This document shows positions 36,129 through 43,179 of a stretch of 64,000 nucleotides of DNA, in pieces. The notes below the pieces were generated by a model. The model was not told the origin of the DNA, did no database searches, and saw only the letters and a program-made list of their open reading frames with translations. The position numbers and the translations under genes are program-made. Position 1 is the first letter of the stretch, and every line of letters starts with the position of its first letter. The DNA is taken from contig NZ_CP035952.1 of assembly GCF_004214895.1 (NCBI RefSeq), positions 3,296,501 to 3,360,500 of the forward strand. The letters run 5' to 3'. The DNA is from Pseudomonas tructae (GTDB lineage Bacteria; Pseudomonadota; Gammaproteobacteria; Pseudomonadales; Pseudomonadaceae).

Positions 36129-36544
36129 TGCAGTACCCCAACAGTGCGGTTGTAGTGGAGGTGAACGAACGAGCCTAGTGCGCAGCTGTTTTCCGGGCAA
36201 GCAGATGAAGTCGACAGATTGTGTAGGGTAATTCTTAGGAGCTGCTCTGGCCAGCCTTGACGCACTGTTGCGTGATGGCGGCCAGGTGCAGGGCTTGGGA
36301 TGGGGGCATGCCCACCGGGTGTCCGCCGCAAGGCTTGTTGCGTTCTTGAGATCGAGCGCCGCCCGCGCGGCGCATCGCGGGGCAAGCCCGCTCCCACATT
36401 TTTTGCAACGTGCCATGGCCTGTGAGAGCGGGGTTGGTAGCCTGGGTGTACGCGTCAAGATGGCCACCACAAACCAGCAATAACTACCACCCTGCCTACC
36501 CCGCTAAATCGCCTCCTGTGCGCTCCCCCAACCGGAGCCCAGCC
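36129..36544. other. Non-coding spacer between the exopolysaccharide locus and the LRR protein gene
   Basis: No credible gene in 416 bases. It contains a single REP copy and, around it, GC-rich sequence with a CCGCCCGCGCGGCG palindrome. Small open frames crossing the REP give the [13 protein letters not shown] peptide typical of REP translation and were not accepted. The promoter of the next gene should lie in the last 140 bases, but no clear -35/-10 pair was found. Confidence 0.6.
36374..36397 (-). repeat. Single REP element
   Basis: One copy of the Pseudomonas REP core in minus orientation (GGGGCAAGCCCGCTCCCAC), without an inverted partner close by. Confidence 0.88.
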
Positions 36545-39500
36545 ATGCCCACTCTCTCCCCCGACAACCCTCATCACGCCCTGCTCAGCCAACGCCTGCC
36601 CAGCGACGCCCAGCATTTCACCAGCGACCACTGGAGCGCACTGCGCACCAGTCTGCACCCCGCCCAGGGCCTGCCCGGCAGCGAGGCGGACTGGTTCGCC
36701 AATGCCGCGCCCTACCTCAGGGAGGCACTGCTCGACAGCCAGGCGCAGCTGCGCCGTTCGCAAATGGCACTGGCGCGCTCGCTCAAGGGCCTGCAAAGCA
36801 TTGCCGGTTTTGCCGAACCGCTGCTGCGCGCACGCTTGCTGGCCGACCATGGCTTGAGCGCCTCATTACCCGGCAGCGAGCTGATCCGGGTGTACCAGAC
36901 CTACCACTGGACCGGCGCCCGCTACCTCAACAGCCATGACCGGCAATCGCTGCTGGAGGCGGCCTTGCACAACTTCGGCGACGACGTGAGCTTCAGCGCC
37001 GACAGTGCGCTGGCCCTGAGCGCCGACATCGAGGTCGAGCCGATCATGGTCTCGAGCTTCGTCACCATCAGCCCCGACCTGCCCGCCCATGAGCTGCACT
37101 TGCCGTCGGAACGCTACCGCATCAAACGCCTGCCCCTGTCGCCCGCGGACTTTGCCCAAAGCTGCCGCCAGCTGGACCTGGGGCGCCAATACCAGGACCA
37201 CTTGCAGGCCCTGTACGAAGCACCTGCCAACCGTACCCAGGTACGCGAACAAGGCGCGGCGGTGTACCGCGACCAGTTGCGCGTAGCCCTGGCCCTGGCC
37301 CACCTGCACCACCACCTGGACCGCCCGGCGATCCGCGCGGTCCAGGCGTTGCTCGACGGCAAGGCCCGCCGTTGCTGGGTGCTGGGCCTGCTGGGCGCCA
37401 CGTTGCATGATGCTCTGGCCATCGACGCCGACGATGCAGGGGTGCTGCTGTACCTGCCGGGCGATACAGAGTCCTTGCAGCAGTATGCGGACTTCGCCAG
37501 CCTGGGCCAGGCGTTGCAAACGCGTTTATTGGCACCTGGATTTCGCCGCCTGTTGATCGGCCGGGTGCCGCTGGAGCAACGCGCCAGCGTCCTGGATAAA
37601 CTCCGCCAGCGCCTGGACGCCAGCGATACCGGCAACGCCGAGGCGCACTGGCAGCCACGGGCCGACGCCAAGCTGCAGATCGCACGCGGCACCCTTGTTG
37701 AGCCACTGTTCGGCTACCTGCAGGACCGCCACCTGGAACGCCTCAAGGCCGAGGCCCGGTTGCTGGCGGTGCCCACCGCCGATGCCGACGTCCAGGCCAG
37801 CGATGCACGCAAGCAACGCCTGGAAAGCTTTGGCTTGAACGTGCTGAACCTCGCCAGTTTCTTCATTCCGGGGTTGGGCGAAATCATGCTCGCGGTCACC
37901 GCCTGGCAACTGCTCAACGAGTGCATCGATGGCGTCGAGGACTGGTACTTGGGTGACCGCGACACGGCCTTGCAGCACGCCGCCTCGGTGGGCATCAATC
38001 TTAGCCTGATCGCCGGCTTGGCGGTGGCCGGCAAGGTCGCCACCCGCCTGTTCAACAGTCCGTTGATGGAACGCCTGGACCCGGTGACCCTGGCCGACGG
38101 CAGCGACCGGCTGTGGCAGCCGGACCTTGCACCCTATCGTAGTGACGTCGAGCTGCCCGAGGGCCTCGAGGCCAATCAACGGGGCCAGTATCTGCTGGCC
38201 GGCAAGCACTACATCCGCATCGAGGGCCAACTGTACGAGCAGCGCCTGGACGCCGATGGCGAGCAATGGCGCATCGTTCACCCACAGCGCCCGGAGGCCT
38301 GGCAGCCGCCGCTGCTGCACAACGACGAAGGCGCCTGGCGCGCGGCGCATGAGCAACCGCTGGACTGGACCTACCCGACCTTGGTGCGCCGGCTGAACGA
38401 GGCCTACCAGGGCTACAGCGACGCTCAGTTGCAGACAGCCCGCCTGATCAGCGGCATCGACCGCGCGCAGCTGCGCCAGGTGCACCTGCGCGGGGAGCCC
38501 TGCCCACCACTGCTGGCCGATAGCCTGCAACGGCTGACGCCCGCCATTGAGCCAAGCCCGCATGAAAGCAGCGCCTCACTGCAGCTGCGCGCGGACTACC
38601 CACACCTGAACCGGCCCCTGGCAGCACGCTTGCTGCGGCACTTGCAACCCGGGGAAATCAGCGCCTGGCAAGCCGGCGAGCCGCTGCCCGCCTGGTTCAG
38701 CCTGCTGGCGCGCCAGGTCAATAACGAGGTGCCCCTGAGCAGGGCGCTGGAAGGGTTGTTCGTGCCTGGCCTGGCGAGCAGCGACAGTGAGCATCTGCTG
38801 CTGGCCTGCCTGCAACGCCTGCCGGGGTGGTCGCCAGCACTGCGCCTGGAGTTACGCGGTGCAAGCCCCGAGGGTCCGCTGCTGGCCAGTATCGGCGACG
38901 CGAGCGCGCGGCAACGCTGCATGGTATTGAAGAGCGCCTTGGGCTATGAGGCCTGGCGCTTCGACCGCCCGGCTCCGGGCACTGTCCACGCCGACCTGTA
39001 CGCGGCCCTGCTGGAGGCCCTGCCTGCCACCCAGCGCCAGGCCCTGGGCCTGATGGCGGGCTCCGCCGAGCCTTTGCGCCTGGCCATCCAGGCCAAGGCG
39101 ACAGCCTCGCGCGAGCAGGCCGCGCGCTGGCTCTGGGGCCATGCCCGCCCCGCGCCTGCCCGCGCCCGCTTGCTCGGTGGCACGCCGTCCGGAGAAAACA
39201 ATCCCTACTCGGGCCATCGGCTGCCCACTGCCTACCTGACGCGGCGCATGCACCGCCTGTATCCCAGCTTTGCCGAGCGCGACATCGCCCACACCCTGCA
39301 GCAATGGCGGGCAGAGGGCATCAATGTGATCCGTGAGGTCCGCGCCCACGAGCAAGCCCTGCGCCAGCTACGCCAAGACCTACAGACCTGGGCCGGGCAA
39401 ACCCCGCGCCGGCAACGGGCAATCGAGCCGTTGGTCGAGGCCTGGCGCCACAACTCCGCGCGCCTGCTCGGCAGTGGCGAGCAGTTGCAGAGCCTGAGCC

Positions 39501-40360
39501 TGGCCAACCTTGAGCTGGAGAACCACGACCTGCAAACCCTGGTATTACCGGATCGCTTTTTCCATATCCGCGACCTCGACCTGGGCGGCAATCGTCAGTT
39601 GAGCCAGCTGCCGGCCGGGTTGTTGGCGCGTTTTCCTGACCTTGAGCGGGTGTACCTTGACGGCTGTCGCTTCGACCAGTTGCCCAATCTGGTGCGCCCC
39701 GCACGCCTGGAGGCCCTGGATATGGGAAACAACCGCCTGACCTGGGACGGCCGGGCGCAATCCACCTTGCACAGCTTCACTCACCTGCGCCTGCTCGAAC
39801 TGTCGAACAACCCGCTGCTACAGGCGCCGGACCTCCGCGGACTGCCGGCGTTGCGTGTCATCAACCTGACCCACTGCAGCCTGACCGAGCTGCCGACCGG
39901 CCTTGCATCGCTGGACCATCCCGTCTCCCTGGACCTTGGCGATAACCAGTTCACCCAGTTGCCCGAGCCCTTGCAGATACCCGAACCGGTGGCCCGGGTC
40001 ATGTGCCTGGAAAGCAACTGGTTGAGCCCACGGGTGCTTGAGCAGATCGAAACCTATTACCTCGAACACGGCGTCGACCTGCTGGTCGCCGAAGGCGACT
40101 ACGAGGAGTTGCTCAGCGGTATTACCCCCGAACAACGGCAGCTGTGGAACCGCTTGCCCCTGGCCTACCGCCGCGCGTTGCGGGTTTTGACCCTGGGCGA
40201 TGCCTTCGCGCGCGATCCGCAGCAAGCCCAGCAGCGGCTGTGGCAACGGATCGAGCGCATGGACCAGGACCCGGCGTTCCTTGCCCAGGCCCTGGGACGG
40301 CCAGCGGGTGAGTTGCTGGAGCTGCCATTGCCGGGGGGTGGTGAACCTCCACGTTCGTAA
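36545..40360 (+). CDS. Large toxin/effector-like leucine-rich-repeat protein without NEL domain
   Basis: A 1271-residue protein resembling the large Pseudomonas proteins that combine an N-terminal dermonecrotic-toxin-like region (DUF6543 type), leucine-rich repeats and a C-terminal NEL E3-ubiquitin-ligase domain. Here about residues 1-420 are the toxin-like part, and 428-502 hold two hydrophobic stretches (LASFFIPGLGEIMLAVTAWQ, SLIAGLAVAGKVA) that could insert in membranes. About 975-1145 hold six or so LRRs (RDLDLGGN, LEALDMGNNRL, LRLLELSNNPL, VSLDLGDNQF). After the LRRs only some 125 residues remain (LWNRLPLAYRRALRVLTLGD, LWQRIERMDQDPAFLAQALG), and the catalytic Cys region of NEL (C-x-D/G) is absent. 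No signal peptide. The start giving MPTLSPDNPHH has GGAG upstream. Confidence 0.78.
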   Translation: MPTLSPDNPHHALLSQRLPSDAQHFTSDHWSALRTSLHPAQGLPGSEADWFANAAPYLREALLDSQAQLRRSQMALARSLKGLQSIAGFAEPLLRARLLADHGLSASLPGSELIRVYQTYHWTGARYLNSHDRQSLLEAALHNFGDDVSFSADSALALSADIEVEPIMVSSFVTISPDLPAHELHLPSERYRIKRLPLSPADFAQSCRQLDLGRQYQDHLQALYEAPANRTQVREQGAAVYRDQLRVALALAHLHHHLDRPAIRAVQALLDGKARRCWVLGLLGATLHDALAIDADDAGVLLYLPGDTESLQQYADFASLGQALQTRLLAPGFRRLLIGRVPLEQRASVLDKLRQRLDASDTGNAEAHWQPRADAKLQIARGTLVEPLFGYLQDRHLERLKAEARLLAVPTADADVQASDARKQRLESFGLNVLNLASFFIPGLGEIMLAVTAWQLLNECIDGVEDWYLGDRDTALQHAASVGINLSLIAGLAVAGKVATRLFNSPLMERLDPVTLADGSDRLWQPDLAPYRSDVELPEGLEANQRGQYLLAGKHYIRIEGQLYEQRLDADGEQWRIVHPQRPEAWQPPLLHNDEGAWRAAHEQPLDWTYPTLVRRLNEAYQGYSDAQLQTARLISGIDRAQLRQVHLRGEPCPPLLADSLQRLTPAIEPSPHESSASLQLRADYPHLNRPLAARLLRHLQPGEISAWQAGEPLPAWFSLLARQVNNEVPLSRALEGLFVPGLASSDSEHLLLACLQRLPGWSPALRLELRGASPEGPLLASIGDASARQRCMVLKSALGYEAWRFDRPAPGTVHADLYAALLEALPATQRQALGLMAGSAEPLRLAIQAKATASREQAARWLWGHARPAPARARLLGGTPSGENNPYSGHRLPTAYLTRRMHRLYPSFAERDIAHTLQQWRAEGINVIREVRAHEQALRQLRQDLQTWAGQTPRRQRAIEPLVEAWRHNSARLLGSGEQLQSLSLANLELENHDLQTLVLPDRFFHIRDLDLGGNRQLSQLPAGLLARFPDLERVYLDGCRFDQLPNLVRPARLEALDMGNNRLTWDGRAQSTLHSFTHLRLLELSNNPLLQAPDLRGLPALRVINLTHCSLTELPTGLASLDHPVSLDLGDNQFTQLPEPLQIPEPVARVMCLESNWLSPRVLEQIETYYLEHGVDLLVAEGDYEELLSGITPEQRQLWNRLPLAYRRALRVLTLGDAFARDPQQAQQRLWQRIERMDQDPAFLAQALGRPAGELLELPLPGGGEPPRS

Positions 40361-40366
40361 TCAGAA

Positions 40367-40450
40367 CAGGCGCTTGCTGTTAACGACTGTCATTTTTATC
40401 AGGTGACAAGTTTGATCGCCGCCTGAAGAATGCAAACAGCAAGCGTCCTG
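40367..40450. repeat. Long imperfect inverted repeat between the LRR gene and the profilin-like gene
   Basis: CAGGCGCTTGCTGTT (40367-40381) pairs with AACAGCAAGCGTCCTG (40435-40450), perfect over 11 bp and extended to 15 with a one-base bulge. The 53 bases between contain a GTCA/TGAC pair. It could be a terminator-type stem, a transcript hairpin or the remnant of a tiny mobile element. Confidence 0.6.
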
Positions 40451-40490
40451 TATGAACGGCAGCAGCGTCAGTTAGCGTAAGGAGACAAGC

Positions 40491-40853
40491 ATGTGGGACT
40501 GGGTACTGTACGTCGACCAGATGACCCGCGCTGACCTATCCGAAGCTGCCGTGGCGGGGCTGGACGGCAGGATTCACAGCCACTCCTCAGGCTTTGCGGC
40601 GACGCAAGCAGAACTACGTTCAATCGCTCGGTTCTTTGCCGGGCAAAGCGAACTGCCAGCACGCTTTTACCTGAACAATACTGAGTACCACTGTCTTGAT
40701 CAGAATGAAGTGTCCATCAGGGGGGCGAATGGGTCGCTGACCGCCTACTGCGAAAAGGCCAGGGATGTGATCCTGATCGCGTTGGGTGAAGGATCGATTC
40801 ATCGATCGCCCATTACCTGTTTGGCCGCTCAGTTGCGCGCATCTGCTGACTGA
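40491..40853 (+). CDS. Profilin-like protein (eukaryotic-type actin-binding fold)
   Basis: A 120-residue protein behind a clear AAGGAG site. It follows the profilin plan from end to end: W4 and Y7-V-D at the N-terminus, AAVAGLDG at 19-26, SSGFAATQA at 32-40, VSIRG at 74-78, KARDVILIA at 89-97, and a terminal LAAQL helix. From memory, amoebal profilin has YVD, AAILGLDG and, at the same five-residue spacing, SAGFAVTPA. Differences: the poly-proline-binding Trp of the WAT segment is His29 here, and the C-terminal aromatic tail is missing. Codon use is unusual for this genome (several AGG, CTA and TCA) and GC looks lower than in neighbours, suggesting transfer. No signal peptide. It lies 130 nt downstream of the toxin-like LRR gene. 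Confidence 0.7.
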   Translation: MWDWVLYVDQMTRADLSEAAVAGLDGRIHSHSSGFAATQAELRSIARFFAGQSELPARFYLNNTEYHCLDQNEVSIRGANGSLTAYCEKARDVILIALGEGSIHRSPITCLAAQLRASAD

Positions 40854-40857
40854 CCCG

Positions 40858-40943
40858 GTGGGAGCGGCGATGCGGCGACCCGACTTGCCCCGCGATGCGA
40901 TGTGGCTGCCAGGCCTCGATCGCGGGGCAAGCCCGCTCCCACC
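40858..40943. repeat. REP pair between convergent genes
   Basis: GTGGGAGCGG with ACTTGCCCCGCGATG on one side and ATCGCGGGGCAAGCCCGCTC on the other form an inverted pair. They sit between the stops of the profilin-like gene and the GGDEF-EAL gene. The left copy carries a short internal insertion (CGATGCGGCGACC). Confidence 0.88.
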
Positions 40944-40950
40944 ACCCCCT

Positions 40951-43179
40951 CTACGCCAGGCACACCTGCTCCTGCGCAAGCCACTGCTGGAACTGCTCGG
41001 CCGGCATCGGTCGGCCGATGACAAAGCCCTGGCCCTGGTCACAGCCGGCATTGCGCAAGAAGGCGTACTGCTCGCGGGTTTCGATGCCTTCGGCGGTGAT
41101 GCGAAAGCCCAGGGCATGGCCCAGGTCGATGATCGCCCGGGTGATCGCCACGCCGTCATCGTCATCGGGCAGGTCCTTGATAAAGGCACGGTCGATCTTC
41201 AGGTGGTTGATCGGCAGCATCTTCAGGTAGGCCAGCGATGAATAGCCGGTGCCGAAGTCGTCCACCGCCGTGGTCACCCCCAGTTGCTGCAACTGCGCCA
41301 GCACCGCGCAGGCGTGCTGTTGGCTTTCCATCAGCAGACTCTCGGTGATTTCCACTTCCAGCAGGGTCGGCGGCAGGTCGTAGCGCTGCAAGGCTCGCGA
41401 CAGGCTGGCGACATAGTCGCTGCGCTCGATCTGCACGGCTGCGACGTTGATCGCCACCGGCCCCGGCAGGCAATCGGCGGCGCGCCAGGCGGCAACCTGG
41501 GCGCAGGCAAGGTCGAGGATCTTCTCGCCCAGGGGGATGATCAGGCCGGTCTGCTCGGCCAGGGGGATGAACTCGCCGGGCGAGACCAGCCCATGCTCCG
41601 GGTCGCGCCAGCGCACCAGCGCCTCGGCGCCCTGCACCTGACCACTGAACAGGTCGACCTTGGGCTGGAACCACAACTCGAACTCGTTGTTGCGCAAGGC
41701 CCGGCGCAGGTTGTGCTCCAGGGCCAGGCGCGCCTGCAGGCGCAGGGTCATGTCCGGGTGGTACAGGCGGTAGGCGTTGCGCCCGCTCTCCTTGGCCGCG
41801 TACATCGCGGTGTCGGCATGGCGCAGCAGGCGGTCGCTGCTCTGGCCATGCTCGGGGCACCAGGCCAGGCCGATACTGCCGGTGACCAGGGCGGCGCTGC
41901 CCTTGAGGTCGAAGGGTTGCTGCAAGGTCTGCAACAGGGCCTGCACCTGGGCCAGGCAACGCGGCTCGGGGCCTTTGAGAACAAAGGCGAACTCGTCGCC
42001 TCCCAGCCGGCAGACGCTGTCGTGGTCTTCGTTGACCTGCACAAAGCGTGCGGTGGCCTGCTGCAGGAGCAAGTCGCCCATGGCGTGGCCGAGGCTGTCG
42101 TTGACTTGCTTGAAGCCGTCGATGTCCAGCACCAGCACCGCCAGGCGCTCACCACCGTTGATCGCCTCAAGTAGCTGCTGGTGAAAGCGCAGGCGATTGG
42201 GCAAGCCGGTGATGCCGTCGTAATGGGCCAGGCGCTCAAGCTCGGCCTGGGACTGCCTCAGTTCATGGTTGCGCAGGTTGATCAGGTGGTTGCTGCGGTT
42301 GAGCTGGGCGACGAACACGCTGAACAGCCCGGTGCAGGTCAGGGCGAAGAGGAACAGCGGCGAAGCGAACAGGCTCATCGACGGCCAGCCGCCCAAGGGG
42401 CTCGCCGCCAATTGCCAGAGCCCGCCAGGCACGTCGACATTGACCGTCACCGGGTGCTGGGTAAACAGCGCCGGGTCGCCCCAGATCATGCCGCCCGCCG
42501 AACCCTGGCCGTCGGCGCCGCGCAGAGCCAGTTCGAAGCCCGGGTCCAGGTCAAGGCCGGCGGTGCTGAGCAAACGGTCGATATCGGCGACGATCGAGAC
42601 ATTACCCCAGTACAGCTTCACGCCCTTGTGGCCCTTGAGGAACACCGGGCGGCGGTAGATCAGCCCGCGTCCGCCCTGAAACAACTGCACCGGCCCGGCC
42701 AGTACCGCGCTGGAGTTGTCGCGGGCGCGTTGCAGCAGCGGGTACTGGTCAGGCAGGTGGCGGTAGTCGACGCCGAGCACGCTCTGGTTGCCGTGCAGCG
42801 GGTAGACGTCGGCGATCACATCGCCCGGGGCCAGGGACACATGGCGAATATGCGGCACCGAGGCAATCGCCTGGCGGGCCATGTCATGAAAGTGTTCGGG
42901 GCTGATTTCGCCGTCGGTGCTGATCAGCTGGGCGATCCCCTCGGTTTCACCGAAGGCCGAGCGCAACTGCGCCTCCAGGCTTGCGCGCACACCGGAAAGG
43001 CGAGCACTGGCGTTGGCGATCACTTCGGCTTCCTGGCGCTGCACATCCAGGCGCCCCAGCACCACCGACAGGCCAATGCCGACCAGGGCAAAGCCTACCG
43101 GTAACAGGCGGTTGAGGGTGGTGCGCAGGTGTGCGGGCAAGGCCAGGCGGTCGTCGAGGGCGAGGGTTCTTGTGCTCAT
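40951..43179 (-). CDS. Membrane c-di-GMP enzyme: CHASE-type sensor, GGDEF and EAL domains
   Basis: A 742-residue inner-membrane protein. TM1 is at about 25-42 (LLPVGFALVGIGLSVVLG). A periplasmic CHASE-like sensor covers about 60-270 (HFHDMARQAIASVPHIRHVS, YPLHGNQSVLGVDYR). TM2 is at about 275-297. The GGDEF domain is at about 315-475 with an intact RLGGDEFAFVL, and the EAL domain at about 485-735 with AEALVRW, EITESLLM, DDFGTGYSSLAYLK and KIDRAFIKD. All catalytic motifs of both activities look intact, so it may make or degrade c-di-GMP depending on signal. It is divergent from the aldehyde dehydrogenase gene. Confidence 0.93.
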   Translation of the reverse strand: MSTRTLALDDRLALPAHLRTTLNRLLPVGFALVGIGLSVVLGRLDVQRQEAEVIANASARLSGVRASLEAQLRSAFGETEGIAQLISTDGEISPEHFHDMARQAIASVPHIRHVSLAPGDVIADVYPLHGNQSVLGVDYRHLPDQYPLLQRARDNSSAVLAGPVQLFQGGRGLIYRRPVFLKGHKGVKLYWGNVSIVADIDRLLSTAGLDLDPGFELALRGADGQGSAGGMIWGDPALFTQHPVTVNVDVPGGLWQLAASPLGGWPSMSLFASPLFLFALTCTGLFSVFVAQLNRSNHLINLRNHELRQSQAELERLAHYDGITGLPNRLRFHQQLLEAINGGERLAVLVLDIDGFKQVNDSLGHAMGDLLLQQATARFVQVNEDHDSVCRLGGDEFAFVLKGPEPRCLAQVQALLQTLQQPFDLKGSAALVTGSIGLAWCPEHGQSSDRLLRHADTAMYAAKESGRNAYRLYHPDMTLRLQARLALEHNLRRALRNNEFELWFQPKVDLFSGQVQGAEALVRWRDPEHGLVSPGEFIPLAEQTGLIIPLGEKILDLACAQVAAWRAADCLPGPVAINVAAVQIERSDYVASLSRALQRYDLPPTLLEVEITESLLMESQQHACAVLAQLQQLGVTTAVDDFGTGYSSLAYLKMLPINHLKIDRAFIKDLPDDDDGVAITRAIIDLGHALGFRITAEGIETREQYAFLRNAGCDQGQGFVIGRPMPAEQFQQWLAQEQVCLA

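Follow-up and report, generated by a model that had tools for sequence, protein, structure and literature searches.

Profilin is usually seen as characteristic of the actin machinery of eukaryotes and Asgard archaea. Asgard archaeal profilins have been solved with rabbit actin (5zza, 5zzb, 5yee). In bacteria, the closest described system is PfnM of Microcystis aeruginosa PCC 7806, characterised with its actin ActM by Guljamow et al. 2012 (PMC3254629). That paper called PfnM the sole prokaryotic profilin homologue then known. It binds its own actin, bundling the filaments, and binds rabbit actin more weakly.

Here we describe a profilin encoded in the window, by which we mean the whole 64,000-nucleotide stretch of Pseudomonas tructae DNA that was analysed. 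As in Microcystis, a eukaryote-type profilin has, in all probability, reached a bacterium by horizontal transfer. However, PfnM is 84% identical to eukaryotic profilin and is encoded beside a eukaryote-type actin (PMC3254629). The window protein is approximately 28% identical to Acanthamoeba profilin and no eukaryote-type actin was found in the genome that encodes it. The preliminary description of this gene had supposed bacterial profilins to be rare or undescribed. They are not undescribed, given PfnM and the two Pseudomonas proteins, from P. akapageensis and Pseudomonas sp. LS-2, that NCBI already names profilin.

A profilin-family gene in Pseudomonas tructae

Features of the locus are listed in Table 1. 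The initial reading of the open frame as a profilin is borne out by profile search and predicted structure. The protein matches Pfam profile PF00235 with 50 bits (cut-off 25, E 4e-13). The model has the profilin fold: a central sheet between N- and C-terminal helices. The N-terminal W..Y and AAxxGxDG...SxGF signature is present, and residue 4 is the start of both the Pfam match and the first model helix. The best PDB matches, by sequence and by structure, are Acanthamoeba castellanii profilins I and II (1acf, 2acg), which share core motifs and their spacing with the window protein. The Asgard structures have a lower Z to the model than amoebal profilin. We conclude that the window protein truly belongs to the profilin family of eukaryotes. 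Its gene may be a transcription unit of its own, since a sigma-70-like match lies upstream. Stretches similar to the downstream inverted repeat occur elsewhere in the window.

Table 1. Positions of the profilin gene, its signals and its neighbours in the window
Feature	Position	Strand	Basis or remark
ToxA_N (PF20178) and leucine-rich-repeat (LRR) protein, upstream neighbour	36410..40360	+	Pfam
Promoter-like sigma-70 match, 9/12	40403..40431	+	Consensus match only
In-frame TAG, sixth codon upstream of profilin ATG	40473..40475	+	Rules out an extended N-terminus in this strain
Shine-Dalgarno-like AGGAGA ahead of profilin ATG	40480..40485	+	Read from sequence
Profilin-family gene, 120 aa	40491..40853	+	Profile, fold, and purifying selection against the P. 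rubra ortholog
Imperfect inverted repeat, presumably REP-like; two 34-nt arms, 74% complementary	40863..40952	.	Between profilin stop and GGDEF/EAL gene
Protein taken to be GGDEF/EAL, downstream convergent neighbour; flanks the empty site	40951..43179	-	Sequence reading

Acquisition and maintenance of the gene

The preliminary description pointed to unusual codons and proposed acquisition from an amoeba-like host. Horizontal acquisition is supported by composition, patchy distribution and empty sites in relatives. The GC content (0.572) and GC3 (0.642) of the profilin gene are the lowest among 46 open reading frames in the window (means 0.643 and 0.836). These frames are non-overlapping, have at least 120 codons and were picked by GC3>GC1>GC2, a rule that favours high GC3 and that the profilin gene also satisfies. 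Matches to PF00235 above the cut-off occur in 4 of 398 Pseudomonas genomes, the window's own included. In overlapping samples of the class (1 of 369) and the phylum (1 of 398), the single match was the window's own genome. Three weaker matches in Pseudomonas genomes (L005–L007, 21–22 bits, below cut-off) were discarded. Two of these, L005 and L007, lie within longer frames without profilin motifs that we take to be OmpA-like. The longest frame overlapping L006, on the other strand, reads as what is presumably a dehydrogenase.

In P. rubra ID1025 a profilin, 90% identical in protein to that of the window, is found at the same place. Here, approximately 15 kb is collinear with the window at 89.5% identity. 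The GGDEF/EAL gene was found in eight other genomes and longer stretches were compared in six of them. In four of the six (G007, G015, G025 and G009) a ToxA_N-LRR-like gene converges on the GGDEF/EAL gene with no profilin between. The stop codons are 20, 21 and 6 bases apart in G015, G025 and G009, respectively, and the frames overlap in G007. The corresponding gap in the window is 590 bases. Pfam detected the ToxA_N domain in three of these four relatives; for G009 the assignment comes from a 32% match to the LRR end. In the other two genomes (G024 and G003) no ToxA_N-LRR-like gene was found in the stretch compared. The toxin-like neighbour was rejected as a clue to profilin function, since in relatives a gene of this kind sits at the site with no profilin beside it.

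The slot beside the GGDEF/EAL gene is variable, with different ToxA_N-LRR-like genes across Pseudomonas species (the window gene; L150, L151, L152 and L154). By mechanical frame calling, the P. rubra copy (L140:11232-15072) extends over two overlapping open frames, while the profilin gene is intact.

The P. akapageensis profilin gene lies elsewhere, between what we take to be DUF808-like and tsx-like genes, 578 bases apart. In 3 of 11 other genomes (G007, G015 and G009) this pair is separated by approximately 90–115 bases and shows no profilin match. In the remaining eight, the tsx-like gene was not matched within the compared stretch. Hence, with its own empty sites in relatives, the P. akapageensis gene shows that lone profilin genes were inserted at two or more places within the genus.

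Between the window and P. rubra profilin genes there are 22.7 synonymous changes per 87 sites and 13.3 nonsynonymous changes per 273 sites. The resulting dN/dS of 0.158 (Fisher p 9e-8, rounded counts) is, for this lineage, an estimate from one ortholog pair, with frames intact in species approximately 10% apart. For the GGDEF/EAL gene of the same pair, dN/dS is 0.042. These values indicate that the profilin protein is maintained, though less strictly than its neighbour. Taken together, it is almost certain that the gene was acquired horizontally, was inserted alone between two convergent genes in an ancestor of the window strain and P. rubra, and has been kept by purifying selection with no eukaryote-type actin found.

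The amoebal donor fared less well than the acquisition itself. Amoebal profilins are the best PDB matches and this is suggestive of such an origin, but the tree singled out no donor. The underlying alignment had 19 rows (14 bacterial and 5 eukaryotic) and the sequence set did not contain the Microcystis protein. Kept out of both alignment and tree were L008 (annotated frame without the N-terminus), L134 (cut short where the frame begins), the Streptomyces copies L161–L164 (divergent or incomplete), P0006 (same locus as L133, judging by length and contig) and repeat gene copies (L001–L004, L158). Three of 16 inner branches were well supported and long branches meet, so assignment of a donor by tree was rejected. 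Six Pseudomonas-type rows, two of them metagenomic, grouped weakly (73/85), and a single origin of these is possible. A viral origin was also rejected; none of seven viral stretches from the motif scan was a profilin. The P. akapageensis profilin had no match in viral contigs or phages, and the window protein had none in plasmids.

Actin, binding surfaces and possible roles

We searched for actin with PF00022. The window's genome has one match (34.7 bits), away from the profilin gene, which we read as MreB-like. Matches also occur in 6 of 14 well-known control genomes. One match each was found in P. rubra, P. akapageensis and LS-2 (28–35 bits) and in two cyanobacterial metagenome-assembled genomes (MAGs; 31–34 bits). 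Streptomyces CT34 has four, neighbours in frame, of up to 47 bits. Two profilin-bearing Nocardia genomes had no PF00022 match. None of the matches in profilin-bearing genomes looks like eukaryotic actin, for which a much higher score would be anticipated, and the search found no eukaryote-type actin in the window's genome. Hence, unlike the Microcystis protein, the window protein is a profilin without its classical partner.

The poly-proline pocket is here taken to comprise W3, Y6, W31, H/Y133, L134 and Y/F139 (human numbering). In the alignment, the window protein has W, Y, H, Q, L and D at these positions, keeping three of the six, and P. rubra has W, Y, Y, Q, L and N. Judged by sequence positions, the window protein would thus lack an intact canonical pocket. 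The proposed replacement of the tryptophan by histidine and loss of the aromatic tail agree with this alignment, which places His at W31 and Asp at the C-terminal Phe. Acanthamoeba profilins keep Trp29, Tyr119, the C-terminal Phe and a GKKG motif; in the window protein the corresponding residues are His, Gln, Asp and GANG, and the C-terminal loop is shorter. Loss of the pocket is not general among Pseudomonas profilins: P. akapageensis has W, Y, W, Y, L and F, all six kept, like Acanthamoeba. Across the bacterial rows, W3 is present in 14 of 14, Y6 in 13, W31 in 10, and an aromatic residue or His at 133 in 10.

On the actin side, the equivalent of Arg74 is Asp in the window protein, Glu in P. 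rubra and Gln in the plant row. If our assumed list of sites (Arg74, GKKG) is right, several basic residues have been lost or charge-reversed. Hence, actin binding by the window protein seems less likely than the preliminary description suggested. However, GKKG is also absent from human profilin 1, which nevertheless binds actin.

We favour the view, at a probability of roughly one half, that the protein is a small binding module put to new use in the cytosol of the bacterium. It would retain the core of a profilin and the platform of N- and C-terminal helices, and would have given up part of the poly-proline pocket and several actin-side residues. So remodelled, the protein may bind some bacterial protein, peptide or lipid. 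A cytosolic, actin-independent role is favoured over delivery into other cells because, in the window strain, residue 4 already belongs to the domain and a stop at the sixth upstream codon rules out a longer N-terminus. In addition, the toxin-like neighbour occupied the site before the profilin. Finally, profilins are also found in Streptomyces and cyanobacteria, which are not known to have such secretion systems. The argument from the N-terminus holds in the window strain only; upstream of the ATG the frame is open for approximately 25 codons in P. rubra and at least 50 in P. akapageensis. A defence role was rejected, as three Pseudomonas profilins had no PADLOC match.

It is less probable, and on balance unlikely, that the protein is a profilin mimic sent into the cells of eukaryotes, whether grazing amoebae, plants or insects, by an SPI-1-like type III or a type VI system, there disturbing actin or proline-rich partners. 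Such an injected modulator is conceivable because the window's genome has both a type VI sheath gene and, outside the window, an SPI-1-like type III cluster at 4.207-4.226 Mb (G000:C1:4207000-4226900, L156), a possible delivery route for a eukaryote-like protein. In that cluster SctV (1036 bits), SctU, SctR, SctC, SctJ and SctI are above NCBIfam cut-offs, while needle-tip and translocator-like matches (SipD-, SicA-, SipB- and SipC-like) are below model cut-offs. The adjoining ToxA_N-LRR gene, the frames open upstream in the two other species and the lack of any eukaryotic actin found within the cell fit the same explanation. Conversely, in the window strain there can be no N-terminal extension that would carry a secretion signal, the neighbour occurs in relatives without profilin and by mechanical frame calling lies in two frames in P. 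rubra, and the equivalents of Arg74 and GKKG are Asp and GANG. A search for SctC at E 1e-70 matched 20 of 63 genomes, many of them partially. P. rubra has a full-length match (448.9 bits), which fits delivery, and LS-2 a partial one. P. akapageensis has a profilin and yet no match at this threshold, which speaks against delivery.

Regulation of MreB, or of another bacterial actin-like filament, is improbable. The genome does have an MreB-like match, and profilin binds actin monomers elsewhere. PfnM binds its own actin (PMC3254629). However, MreB is generally known from rod-shaped bacteria, whereas 4 of 398 Pseudomonas genomes have a profilin. Some of the actin-side residues are missing, and the two Nocardia genomes have profilin with no PF00022 match. 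Least probable, and already disfavoured, is a recently captured, functionless gene in decay: patchy distribution, atypical composition and a variable former Trp site (His in the window protein, Tyr in P. rubra) would fit, but the frames are intact with dN/dS of 0.158 and a Nocardia profilin pair has dN 0.216 against dS 0.878.

Profilins of other bacteria

The profilins of P. akapageensis and LS-2 belong to the same family and genus as the window protein, but are 28–33% identical to it and have other genomic surroundings. No Pseudomonas profilin was named in titles or abstract openings among the literature matches listed. In the genus of Streptomyces sp. CT34, 7 of 295 genomes, CT34 included, have PF00235 matches above the cut-off. 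A motif scan of one genome per species yielded, among the 120 stretches listed, at least eight profilins confirmed by profile search. These are from P. rubra, P. akapageensis, two Streptomyces, two Nocardia, and one Calothrix and one Trichodesmium MAG, the last two of which may be contamination. A profilin is also encoded on each of two Streptomycetaceae plasmids. A search of 5.8 billion proteins found the window protein alone; with alignments, five others were found, each with a Pfam profilin domain.

We suggest, tentatively and at somewhat less than even odds, that bacteria of several phyla repeatedly captured lone eukaryotic profilins and retained them, with no actin, for a function peculiar to these proteins. 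Profilin would then be able to serve as an actin-independent binding module. In this Pseudomonas lineage it would have been reshaped to fit a bacterial partner or else directed against actin in neighbouring eukaryotes. If Pseudomonas, Streptomyces, Nocardia and cyanobacteria do retain profilins with no actin of the eukaryotic type, what profilin does minus actin could be studied directly. Such genes also offer a compact and testable example of a bacterium putting a eukaryotic gene to use, for which clean empty sites are available as a comparison.

Some further copies were seen. The LS-2 gene (L138:10036-10434, P0002) is a third distinct Pseudomonas profilin, in a cluster of 8 sequences on 20 contigs. 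One plasmid copy lies on the Streptantibioticus cattleyicolor megaplasmid (L009:8001-8384), where the PLSDB table shows no gene. In Nocardia sp. alder85J, Pfam places the profilin domain behind DUF7691 in a fusion (L090:1127-2161). A second Nocardia sequence (L071:1-810) looks similar, with the profilin domain at the C-terminus of a larger protein.
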